Shown here: positions 775-27,250 of the stretch, piece by piece
How positions within the stretch are numbered: the stretch's first letter is position 1
How the letters are laid out: each line of letters starts with the position of its first letter
Assembly (NCBI GenBank): GCA_029260255.1
Contig: JAJDDR010000052.1
Coordinates: forward strand, 1-39,628
Source: Phycisphaerae bacterium
GTDB lineage: Bacteria > Planctomycetota > Phycisphaerae > UBA1845
Reading direction: 5' to 3'
Length of the DNA: 39,628 bases
Program-made: the position numbers and the translations under genes
Notes under the pieces: model-generated
Database searches by the model: none
What the model saw: the letters and a program-made list of their open reading frames with translations, nothing else
What the model was told of the DNA's origin: nothing

Positions 775-921
775 CGCTCCTGGGGTGTGACCAGCGATTG
801 TGGCATGCCAAGGGTAGGGCGGGTTCGACCCGCCTTCTTGCACGATTGCGGCGGGTAAAACCCGCTCCACCGCATGTGCCCGGCCGACGATGCCACAAAG
901 AATGGCCACACCCCCGCTCCT
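775..921. mobile_element. MITE copy A (133 bp, 782-914) with 7-bp target-site duplication
   Basis: The core 782-914 starts GGGGTGTGACCA and ends with the inverted form of GGGGTGTGGCCA. A second matching block, TTGTGGCAT, lies further in on both ends, so the imperfect terminal inverted repeats span about 25 bp. Direct repeats CGCTCCT flank it at 775-781 and 915-921. Two internal palindromes, GGCGGGTTCGACCCGCC (818-834) and GCGGGTAAAACCCGC (851-865), would form hairpins. There is no coding capacity, so any transposase acts in trans. A copy in opposite orientation at 27055-27187 differs at one base (position 868). Confidence 0.9.
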
Positions 922-959
922 GTCATTCCGAGCGTAGCGAGGAATCTAGTCGGAATGAC
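922..959. repeat. Intergenic palindromic repeat (GTCATTCCGA type)
   Basis: The segment opens with GTCATTCCGA and closes with its reverse complement TCGGAATGAC, with GCGTAGCGAGGAATCT between. It abuts the right target duplication of the MITE. A related but longer inverted repeat lies at 11735-11801. Similar GTCATTCCGAGCG-type sequences are scattered between genes in many bacteria. From 960 to 1078 I see nothing further. Confidence 0.6.
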
Positions 960-1078
960 AACGTTGCGGGTCACCTCGTGGAGCGAGCCACGCATTCGCC
1001 CGCCGACACCGCCCAGACTGGGTGCACCCGTACGGGATTGTCTGTGCAAGAGTCACGCGCCCCGCTAGTATCCGGTCG

Positions 1079-2111: not shown

Positions 2112-2183
2112 ACTCTGCCTGCCCCGCCGGTGAACACGGGGATCGCCTGTGGCGCGGGCGGCGTGCCGGTCGACCCCGTCCAC
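2112..2183 (+). pseudogene. Fossil of a pseudopilin C-terminus (24 codons)
   Basis: Translation from 2112 reads [17 protein letters not shown] and then VPVDPVH. Aligned without gaps to the last 24 codons of the pseudopilin ending at 3435 it is 13/24 identical, and it is also 13/24 identical to the one ending at 4883, through partly different positions. Many of the nucleotide differences at identical residues fall in third codon positions, as expected between diverged coding sequences. No start, pilin N-terminus or H-x-DG region precedes it, because the previous gene stops only 34 bases upstream. I infer a third tandem copy that was mostly deleted. The short length leaves some chance of coincidence. 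Confidence 0.5.
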
Positions 2184-2248
2184 TGCCCCCGCCGCGGGTC
2201 CTCTACGGCCGACGGCACGGCGAAAGTGCCACCCCGGCGAGAATCCCA

Positions 2249-2277
2249 TTGACCTCCGCGGCGCGCTCGGCGATACT
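2249..2277 (+). promoter_or_regulatory. Candidate sigma-70-type promoter for the first pseudopilin
   Basis: TTGACC (2249-2254) and GATACT (2272-2277) are separated by 17 bases, matching the -35 and -10 consensus at 5/6 and 4/6 positions. A small palindrome CTACATACTGTAG follows immediately. The untranslated leader would be about 110 bases before the AAGGAG site at 2382-2387. Confidence 0.45.
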
Positions 2278-2394
2278 ACATACTGTAGGGAATTGTATCG
2301 AAGTCGTGCCGGGCGCCGCCGACCGACGCGACGATGCCGACACGGCGGAGATCGAGATATTGCATACCTTCATTCGCCAATAAGGAGTAAGCAC

Positions 2395-3435
2395 ATGGAA
2401 ACCAAAACGATGGCGCGCGCGCGGGCGAAGCCGCTGCACGCTTTCACTCTCATCGAGTTGCTGGTGGTCGTCGCGATCATCGCGCTGCTCATCAGCATTC
2501 TGCTCCCGTCGCTGAAGCGCGCCCGGGCGCAGGCGAAGATGGTCGCGTCCACGGCGAACGTGCGCGGCATCTCCACGGCGGGCAACACGTTCGCCAACGA
2601 GGCGAGGGACTCGCTCTCGATCCCGGTGCATCACTTGATGGGTATGGGCGTCGGCACGATCGGCGAGTATGAGTACGGTGGCAAGTCAGGCATCGGCGAA
2701 CCGCTGACGGGCAACGACCCGGCGTCGTCGAAGTGGGGCACGCAGGAAGGTCGCGGTCCGGCGACGCGTGGGCTGAATAGAGTTCTCTACAAGGGTGGGT
2801 TTCCCGACTACAGCAACGACCCCGGGCCTAACAACGAGAACTGGCTTAACGACACGAAGATCGATCTCGGAATCTTCAGAGCGCCGTCCGACACCGGGTA
2901 CGCCGGGCACCACTATCTGGCGTGGCAGGAGTCAGGCCTGAGTTCGTACGATCACTACGGGAATAGTTACTCGGCGAGTACTGCTTGGATCGGCTACTCG
3001 GGGGGCAACTGCGTGCTCTGGAGCAATTCGGCGTTCCTCAAGCCGATCTCACGCGTACCGAACCCCGCCGACACGATTTACTTCATCGAAAACGCGGGGC
3101 GGTTCGCGTGGCGGAAAAACTATGGTGCCGACGGTTGCTCGTCGCTCAGCGGTCCGCTGGGCAACGACGTCGAGACAATCATCAAGGGCTGGCACGGCAA
3201 GCCATGGGAGTTCGCGGCGTCGTTCGTTGACGGTCACGGCGCGATGACCCACATTGAGGGCCACAATCAGCCGCAGCCGCAGCTTTCGTCCTACCCCGAC
3301 GGGGATAGCTACGGCACTTGGCATTGCGTCATCATCCGCGGGCAAAACTGGCAGGAGGACACCCTTCCGGCGCCACCGGTGCTGACGGATATCGCATGCA
3401 CGACGGGCGCAACGGCGGTCAACACGATCAACTAA
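2395..3435 (+). CDS. Prepilin-type N-terminal cleavage/methylation domain protein (pseudopilin 1)
   Basis: The 346-residue product starts at ATG 2395, seven bases after AAGGAG (2382-2387). Residues 16-40 hold the type IV pilin/type II pseudopilin signature [18 protein letters not shown], with Glu at +5 after the predicted prepilin-peptidase site; the -1 residue is Ala rather than the commoner Gly. After the N-terminal helix ([18 protein letters not shown]) comes a large globular region ending with a conserved [17 protein letters not shown] block, an H-x(11)-DG variant of the C-terminal H-X9-DG motif seen in planctomycete members. Such proteins are inserted in the inner membrane and processed by PilD-type peptidase. 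It is a close tandem paralogue of the next gene. The exact role (secretion pseudopilus or other surface filament) is not known. Confidence 0.9.
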
Positions 3436-3815: not shown

Positions 3816-4883
3816 ATGGTACGCAAACAACTGAATCGGTTGGGAAGACTTCCCGATTGCAGGAGGCGCACACCCGCCTTCACGCTGATCGAGTTGCTGG
3901 TGGTCGTTGCGATCATCGCGCTGCTCATCAGCATTTTGCTCCCCTCGCTGAAGCGCGCTCGGGCGCAGGCGAAAATGGTCGCTTCCACGGCCAACGCGCG
4001 AGGCCTCGCGACGGCGGGCAACACGTTCGCCAACGAGGGCAAGAACGCGCTGTCCCTCCCGCGGCATCACTTGATGGGCGCGGGTCTCGGCGCGGTGGGT
4101 GAGTATGAGTTCGGTGGCAAGTCGGGGGCCGGCCAGCCGCAGTTGGGCAACGATCCGGCCTCGTCGCTGTGGGGCACGCAGGAGGGCCGCGGTCCGGCGA
4201 CGCGCGGGCTGAACAAGGTTCTTTACAAGGGCGGATTCCCGGACTACCGCAACGACCCCGGACCCAACAACGAGAACTGGCTGAACGACACCAAGATCGA
4301 TCTCGCGATCTTCAAAGCGCCGTCCGACACCGGGTACGCCGGACACCACTCTCTGGCGTGGCAGGAGTCGGGCCTGAGTTCGTACGACCACTACGGAACC
4401 AGTTATGCGGCCGTTACAATGTGGACGGGGGTGGCCGGTGGAGATTGCGAGTTGAGCAGCAACGCCGCGTTCCTCAAGCCGCTGTCGCGAATCCCGAACG
4501 CGGCCAACACGCTCTACATCATCGAGAACGCCGGTCGGTACGCCGCCCGCAAGAACTATGGCGCATCGGACGGGGGCGCGTGCTCGTATCTGTCAGGGCT
4601 CCCGACGGGCGACACCGTGGAAACGGTCATCAAGGGCTGGCACGGCAAGCCGTGGGAGTTTGCGGCGTCGTACGTCGATGGTCACGCGGCGATGGTGCAT
4701 ATGGCAGGGCACATCCAACCGCAGCCGCACCTGTCGCACTATCCGAACGGCCGGACTTGGGAGAACTACCGTTGCGTGATCATGCGAGGTCCGAACTGGC
4801 AGATCGACACCCTGCCCGCGACGCCGGTCCCGACCGGGATCGGCTGCAACGAAGCGGGCGTGATTGTCAATTCGATCGGCTAA
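3816..4883 (+). CDS. Prepilin-type N-terminal cleavage/methylation domain protein (pseudopilin 2)
   Basis: The 355-residue product starts at ATG 3816 with GGAGA ten bases upstream. The prepilin signature [18 protein letters not shown] begins near residue 26, again with Ala at -1 and Glu at +5. It parallels pseudopilin 1 along its whole length: the blocks [49 protein letters not shown] and GLSSYDHYG recur in the same order, and [12 protein letters not shown] followed by YVDGH near the C-terminus matches as well. The most variable part lies around residues 200-260. This is a recent-looking tandem duplication in which each copy kept its own ribosome site and the second has a clear terminator. 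Specialised functions for the two copies cannot be inferred from sequence alone. Confidence 0.9.
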
Positions 4884-21957: not shown

Positions 21958-22140
21958 ATGCTCGAAGTCACCGGGATCACCAAGAAGTATCCCGGCGTAC
22001 TGGCGCTCGACCGCGTCGATTTCGACGTGCGCGCCGGCGAGGTGCATGCCCTGGTCGGCGAAAACGGCGCCGGCAAGAGCACGCTGGTCAAGGTGCTCGG
22101 CGGTGCCCATCGTCCCGATTCCGGTACGGTTCGTCTCGAC
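21958..22140 (+). pseudogene. RbsA-like sugar ABC ATPase, first 61 codons only
   Basis: ATG 21958, 11 bases after the binding-protein stop, begins an ordinary sugar ATPase N-terminus: [36 protein letters not shown] (Walker A, residues 34-42) and [11 protein letters not shown]. After codon 61 the frame turns to unrelated sequence because the rest of the ATPase gene, normally about 500 codons, is gone and permease sequence follows in another frame. The fragment lacks the signature and Walker B motifs, so it cannot hydrolyse ATP. Confidence 0.85.
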
Positions 22141-22699
22141 GCTCGCCATGCTCACCATCGCGCGCGGCGTGGTGCTGCATTTCACCGGAAGTCGCTCCGT
22201 GTCAGGACTCCCCGAGACATTCGGAGACTTCGCGTACGGCGATGGGGCTATCTACCTCATGTTCGCACTGTTCATCGTCGCCTGGCTCGTGCTGACGCGG
22301 ACGCCTTTCGGACGCCACGTGTACGCGGTCGGCGGAAACCCCGAAGCCGCACGCCTCTGCGGAATCAAGGTCGATTGGGTTCTCCTGCGCGTCTACGTCA
22401 TCAGCGGCGCACTTGCGGGTCTCTCAGGCGTCTGGCTGACCGCAAGACTCAACGTCGGTGATCCCAAGAGCGGCGCGTTGATGGAGCTCGACGCCATCGC
22501 CGCGGTCGTCGTCGGCGGAACGAGCCTCATGGGCGGTCGAGGCTCCATCTGGGGGACGCTCATCGGAGCGCTCGTCATCGGCGAGTTGAACAACGGGCTC
22601 AACCTCCTGCAGGTCGAGTACTACAGCCAGAAGATCGTCATCGGCATCGTGTTGGTATTGGCCGCGTTCCTCGATCGGTTCCGGACGCAGGATCAGTAG
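22130..22699 (+). pseudogene. RbsC-like sugar permease, C-terminal 189 residues only
   Basis: In the +1-shifted frame the sequence from 22130 reads [20 protein letters not shown] and continues through [38 protein letters not shown] and AAVVVGGTSLMGGRGSIWGT to a normal permease end (LDRFRTQDQ). This is the C-terminal part of a ribose/xylose-type BPD_transp_2 permease that is normally about 320-330 residues; the first 120-140 are missing. Hydrophobic helices are preserved. An ATG at 22046 or 22150 could start translation, but the product would lack the N-terminal helices and its ATPase partner. Confidence 0.85.
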
Positions 22700-26921: not shown

Positions 26922-27047
26922 TCAGCGCCTCCTGCGTAGTCGTTTCGGAATCCAATTGCCCGCCCACGCACCGCGCGGCGACACGAGGCTCGCATCGTGG
27001 GCAACCAATCTAGTGGCAGGCGCACCCCATGTCGACAGCGACGCCAC

Positions 27048-27194
27048 GAGCGCGGGGGTGTGGCCATTCTTTGTGGCATCGTCGGCCGGGCACATGCGGT
27101 AGAGCGGGTTTTACCCGCCGCAATCGTGCAAGAAGGCGGGTCGAACCCGCCCTACCCTTGGCATGCCACAATCGCTGGTCACACCCCGAGCGCG
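27048..27194. mobile_element. MITE copy B (133 bp, 27055-27187) with 7-bp target-site duplication
   Basis: The reverse complement of the core at 782-914 with a single substitution. Direct repeats GAGCGCG flank it at 27048-27054 and 27188-27194; these differ from the CGCTCCT duplication of copy A, showing independent insertions. It lies between the divergent starts of the amidohydrolase and FAD genes, 64 bases before the FAD start, and may affect their promoters. Confidence 0.92.
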
Positions 27195-27250
27195 GACGAT
27201 TCCGTACACACGGTTGCATCATCGCCCCCAACCGCGACAATGAACCGACC

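Follow-up and report, generated by a model that had tools for sequence, protein, structure and literature searches.

REPINs are among the commonest repeats of bacterial genomes, and RAYTs are held responsible for spreading them. A different class of mobile DNA, the insertion sequences (ISs) of the prokaryotic Mutator superfamily, has ends of 18–39 bp and generates target duplications of 8 or 9 bp, and the ISKra4 branch of this superfamily occurs in Planctomycetes (Guerillot et al., PMC3942029). REP dimers located within long palindromes have been described in a few bacteria by Di Nocera et al. (PMC3733652), who regarded the palindromes as targets. Here, we describe a family of MITEs from a Phycisphaerae bacterium in which selfish DNA of one type seems to travel inside that of another, a REPIN within a MITE. 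Two copies lie in the window, that is, the whole stretch of DNA analysed (39,628 nucleotides); the draft genome to which it belongs is termed the host genome.

The two copies are 131 bp each and lie in opposite orientation, copy 1 at 783–913 on the forward strand and copy 2 at 27056–27186 on the reverse strand; they are 130/131 identical and thus one base apart. Copy 1 is bordered by an exact 9-bp target duplication (TSD), CCGCTCCTG (774–782 and 914–922, forward strand), and copy 2 by a private one of its own, CGAGCGCGG (27047–27055 and 27187–27195, forward strand). Copy 2 is situated between divergent genes that start at about 26921 (reverse strand) and about 27251 (forward strand). An earlier interpretation made from the letters of the window (the sequence-only reading) had correctly recognised a near-identical inverted pair with a private duplication at each copy, but had drawn the cores at 782–914 and 27055–27187, giving 133 bp, 132/133 identity and duplications of 7 bp. 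The 7-bp figure arose because a flanking G and a flanking C had been counted into the element; with the borders moved in by one base each, the duplications become 9 bp and the ends match those of an IS, and the 133-bp core was rejected.

The MITE is short, has imperfect terminal inverted repeats (TIRs) of about 24 bp and is without coding capacity; the TIRs and the two inner palindromes that had been proposed for the window copies are both present. In copy 1, the left TIR is GGGTGTGACCAGCGATTGTGGCAT (783–806, forward strand) and the right TIR is GGGTGTGGCCATTCTTTGTGGCAT (890–913, reverse strand). The element is unusually stable for its composition when folded (z-score −5.0), and no Rfam family was found in the window. 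Elsewhere in the window, 2149–3435 and 3816–4883 encode a tandem pair of similar proteins with prepilin-type N-termini, and at 21958–22699 the apparent start of a sugar ABC transporter ATPase runs into the end of a permease in a different frame, an arrangement that resembles a large deletion or a misassembly.

Far more than the two copies originally reported are present in the genome. The end motif GGGTGTGRCCANNNNTTGTGGCA, allowing three mismatches or fewer, has 159 matches in the 5.75-Mb host draft genome versus 4 in a reversed control, and the genome therefore holds about 75–80 elements; the counts given for this genome rest on the motif search and on approximately 90 stretches of it that were read. 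Among the 52 distinct TIR-bounded elements read in the host genome, 46 are 131 bp long and the others range from 92 to 260 bp. Exact 9-bp duplications flank 42 of the 52 and exact 8-bp duplications flank two, while four more have duplications with one or two mismatches; when left and right flanks were mismatched as a control, 4 out of 2652 pairs agreed. Both copies in the window fall into a young subfamily comprising seven copies at 130–131/131 and one at 127/131, and the remaining 131-bp copies have 82–89% identity to the window copy. No match to the element was found among 72,556 plasmids, nor to the full composite motif among named GTDB genomes, a collection that the host genome possibly lies outside. 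As a separate observation, a 119-bp and a 131-bp MITE adjoin at G000:C616:1064–1322 (L004) in the order CAGTCTCGC – MITE – CAGTTTCGC – MITE – CAGTTTCGC; the 9 bp between them equal the outer duplication, as though the insertion of one had taken place right at the border of the other. Contig C257 holds another adjacent pair.

Copy 1 is located at the edge of a dispersed palindromic repeat of the GTCATTCCGAGCG type (923–960, forward strand), which was its target. The host genome contains 29 uninterrupted near-matches of GCGAGCCGCTCCTGTCATTCCGAG, two of them exact, with a single CCGCTCCTG (control 0), and the uninterrupted form also occurs at L032. These empty sites, which are paralogous, read GCGAGCCGCTCCTG|TCATTCCGAG with one CCGCTCCTG; for the orthologous site of copy 2, the contig of the only genome of the same genus (G001) stops 49 bp before the start of the aligned gene. 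A separate element on contig C575 (L009), 112/131 identical, has inserted independently at the same position of the repeat as copy 1. The proposal of a recently transposed, non-autonomous MITE was thus right: other copies carry duplications, and the empty paralogous sites hold a single 9-mer. The palindromic repeat itself is widespread and starts (G)TCATTCCGAGCG.AGCGAGGAATC; besides the copy at 923–960, the window has one on the reverse strand from 11800.

The sequence-only reading had assigned the element to no known family. Judged by sequence comparison, the MITE family can be named after all as putatively belonging to an ISKra4-type IS, because the same ends and duplications of 8–9 bp bound ISKra4-like ISs of 1550 bp in relatives. 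In the host genome, contig C461 ends inside an open frame whose final 38 residues are RLKRTGMKWDPANAEALMNLAALRESGQWDRWWEAAAA, the C-terminus of an ISKra4-type transposase; the stop codon that follows overlaps the end GGGTGTGACCATCGATTGTGGCAT, which matches the left TIR of copy 1 at 23/24 positions and the right TIR at 20/24. Contig C372 carries a second C-terminal fragment beside the ends. A complete, intact ISKra4-type IS was not found in the host draft genome, where only fragments occur, one of them at a contig edge, as expected of an unassembled repeat although not proof of one; within the window, in agreement with the sequence-only reading, no relative of the transposase was found.

Full-length ISs with the same ends are present in two relatives: in G041 (L084), a 1550-bp IS reaches a contig edge with one of its ends, and in G047 (L097), a 1550-bp IS has the 8-bp duplication CGTCACTC. 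A third genome, G044 (L183, C377), has a 931-bp IS, ending at L183:3006, in which the middle of the transposase is deleted, the ends are intact and an exact 9-bp duplication, GGGATCGAT, is retained; it is an intermediate between IS and MITE and shows a deletion route to the non-autonomous form. IS-associated duplications are also seen at L100 (9 bp) and L104 (8 bp), and the named contigs with the IS-type end all derive from Phycisphaerae MAGs. In the ISs at L084, L097 and L183, the transposase is encoded in two overlapping frames, the second being +1 (or −2), with a run of T/C at the overlap. Nine aligned transposases from the relatives have an invariant D (GxD), D (DGxxWI) and E (IGSGxxE), which are probably the catalytic DDE residues.

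When compared with the NCBI model NF033572 (ISKra4), the transposase scores E=3.8e-57 and 194.3 bits, narrowly missing the curated cut-off of 205 bits. Duplications of 8–9 bp are common to the superfamily (PMC3942029) and the transposase also matches UPF0236/ISLre2, weakly and in second place, and it could be argued from these two points that the mobiliser is another Mutator-superfamily IS, of the IS256, ISLre2 or ISH6 group. We consider this very improbable, since ISKra4 is by far the best family for the transposase, exceeding ISLre2 by 136 bits, and the MITE-type ends adjoin ISKra4-type transposases in four genomes, the host genome among them in the form of fragments. Tn3, IS1, IS256 and IS1595 had been considered from the length of the duplications, and were dropped once ISKra4 was suggested by the IS end on C461.

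The two inner palindromes are not incidental and correspond to a REPIN that is free-standing elsewhere. They consist of GTAG-GGCGGGTnnnACCCGCC twice, in inverted orientation, and together span 57 bp, which is the anatomy of a REPIN. The first REP of copy 1 (814–834, forward strand) is GTAG followed by the hairpin GGCGGGT-tcg-ACCCGCC, and in the second, inverted REP (850–870, reverse strand) the tag has decayed to GTGG; the corresponding REPs of copy 2 are GTAGGGCGGGTTCGACCCGCC (27135–27155, reverse strand) and GTAGAGCGGGTTTTACCCGCC (27099–27119, forward strand). A search with GTAGGGCGGGTTNNACCCGCC gives 172 matches in the host genome, 1228 in G024 and 128 in G021, with 0 in the control in every case. 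With 1228 matches to a single GTAG REP in 4.7 Mb of draft sequence, G024 (JAGLWJ, Phycisphaerae bacterium RS_12_20) bears an extreme REPIN load. Across the MITE subfamilies, the REPs are conserved to the same degree as the ends, whereas the stretch from the REPIN to the right end is variable.

Palindromic interiors are common in MITEs, and the ends and duplications suffice to explain mobility; the element might therefore be an ordinary MITE, with inner hairpins that are incidental remnants of an IS or random sequence and have no link to REPs. This is improbable in view of three observations. Firstly, the core is found free of the ends, at 12 host-genome loci (13 free-standing cases among the 100 REP matches listed, the rest lying in intact or decayed MITEs) and more than 1000 times in G024, where the REP is mostly free-standing; matches whose sequence was not read were classed by the end-motif matches nearby. 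Secondly, the copies without ends have GTAG at their outer edges and the spacing seen inside the MITE, many pairs in G024 being exactly 36 bp apart. Thirdly, the core is missing from the full IS sequences. RAYT-type Y1_Tnp genes are present in 11 of the 11 genomes checked, and this REP lies near a Y1 gene at one of 12 loci examined (L129, G024).

Given free-standing REPs and Y1 transposase genes, a further alternative has to be weighed, namely that the REPIN is the moving unit and is placed by a RAYT into existing palindromic targets, the outer ends being targets and not transposon ends. The GTAG-15 dimers of A. variabilis, which are reported to lie within palindromes (PMC3733652), would agree with such a scheme. 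It has very little probability here: sequence beyond the outer ends varies by site, the 9-bp duplications lie exactly at those ends, the ends match real IS ends, and in relatives the same ends enclose other interiors. In G024, MITE-type ends with duplications enclose other palindromic interiors of 191 bp and 216 bp, the latter with a GTAGCGTC... pair, and they do so too in G041 (180 bp) and G016 (169–171 bp). The TIRs with another interior in G041 and G016 were taken at first for IS ends and proved to be those of other MITEs. With such varied palindromic interiors between the same ends in relatives, repeated uptake of palindromes by the MITE family is likely, though some interiors may be related by descent.

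The reading that we favour, and hold with considerable confidence, is that of a non-autonomous MITE whose ends are used by an ISKra4-type DDE transposase of the host genome, with TSDs of 9 bp (sometimes 8 bp), and which carries a 57-bp REPIN. An ISKra4-type enzyme is the most likely mover of the MITE, as far as can be judged from the shared ends. The transposase of the 1.55-kb IS would recognise the ends of about 24 bp, GGGTGTGRCCANNNNTTGTGGCAT, and cut there, the unit would be inserted with a 9-bp stagger, and the REPIN would move as cargo between the ends. An ancestral MITE would have captured the REPIN or received it by insertion, and in the host genome most REPs would have spread through MITE transposition and not through a RAYT. 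A bolder version, which we regard as speculative and rather unlikely, is that of an element with two engines: the double-stranded unit would be spread by the DDE enzyme with 9-bp TSDs, while the REPIN would still be a single-strand substrate for a RAYT, able to leave or to reseed, and ISKra4-type MITEs would be general carriers that repeatedly take up REPIN-like palindromes. This idea of a general carrier stems from the relatives, where the same ends surround different palindromic interiors.

MITEs, ISKra4-type ISs and REPINs are each already known; what is new is the fusion of MITE and REPIN and the spread of the REPIN with the MITE. A search of open-access literature brought up neither an ISKra4 MITE nor a REPIN inside a MITE that makes duplications. 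The MITE of a DDE transposon would here bring a REPIN to most of the sites that the REPIN occupies in its own genome, and the family is a natural setting in which to ask if RAYTs are needed for REPINs to spread, and if the number of REPs reflects RAYT activity at all. It also offers a way to explain why REP dimers had been reported to lie within long palindromes.

Compared with described systems, the element shares with the ISKra4 family (ISAzba1, ISMich2 and ISKra4 groups; p-MULT 4, PMC3942029) the homology of the partner transposase, duplications of 8 or 9 bp, occurrence in Planctomycetes and ends that fall within 18–39 bp and close in C (G at the 5′ end). It differs from that family in being a 131-bp unit without a transposase and in having a partner whose transposase is just under the NCBI cut-off. 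The overlapping two-ORF transposase of the partner IS is like that of the ISMich2 group, although a −1 frame is predicted for ISMich2 (PMC3942029) and the partner IS has +1 (or −2). As in REPINs and GTAG-tagged REP dimers with RAYTs (PMC3116915, PMC3733652, PMC2817692), there are two inverted REPs of GTAG plus hairpin, which also occur free-standing in genomes with Y1 genes; unlike REPINs, most genomic copies here lie inside a DDE-type MITE and have the target duplications of that MITE. The GTAG-15 dimers of A. variabilis and the CGTC-1 dimers of H. neapolitanus are similarly REP dimers in the middle of a palindrome (PMC3733652), but there the palindromes are treated as targets, with neither an IS partner nor duplications mentioned in the relevant passage, whereas here the outer palindrome consists of transposon ends. 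The BrickBuilt MITE of Porphyromonas gingivalis (PMC4596501) is likewise a MITE that encloses another class of repeat, in that case a different one, a minisatellite. Finally, plant Pack-MULEs (mentioned in PMC3942029) are, like this MITE, non-autonomous Mutator-type elements with foreign sequence; their cargo consists of gene fragments, whereas the cargo of the MITE described here is a selfish repeat.
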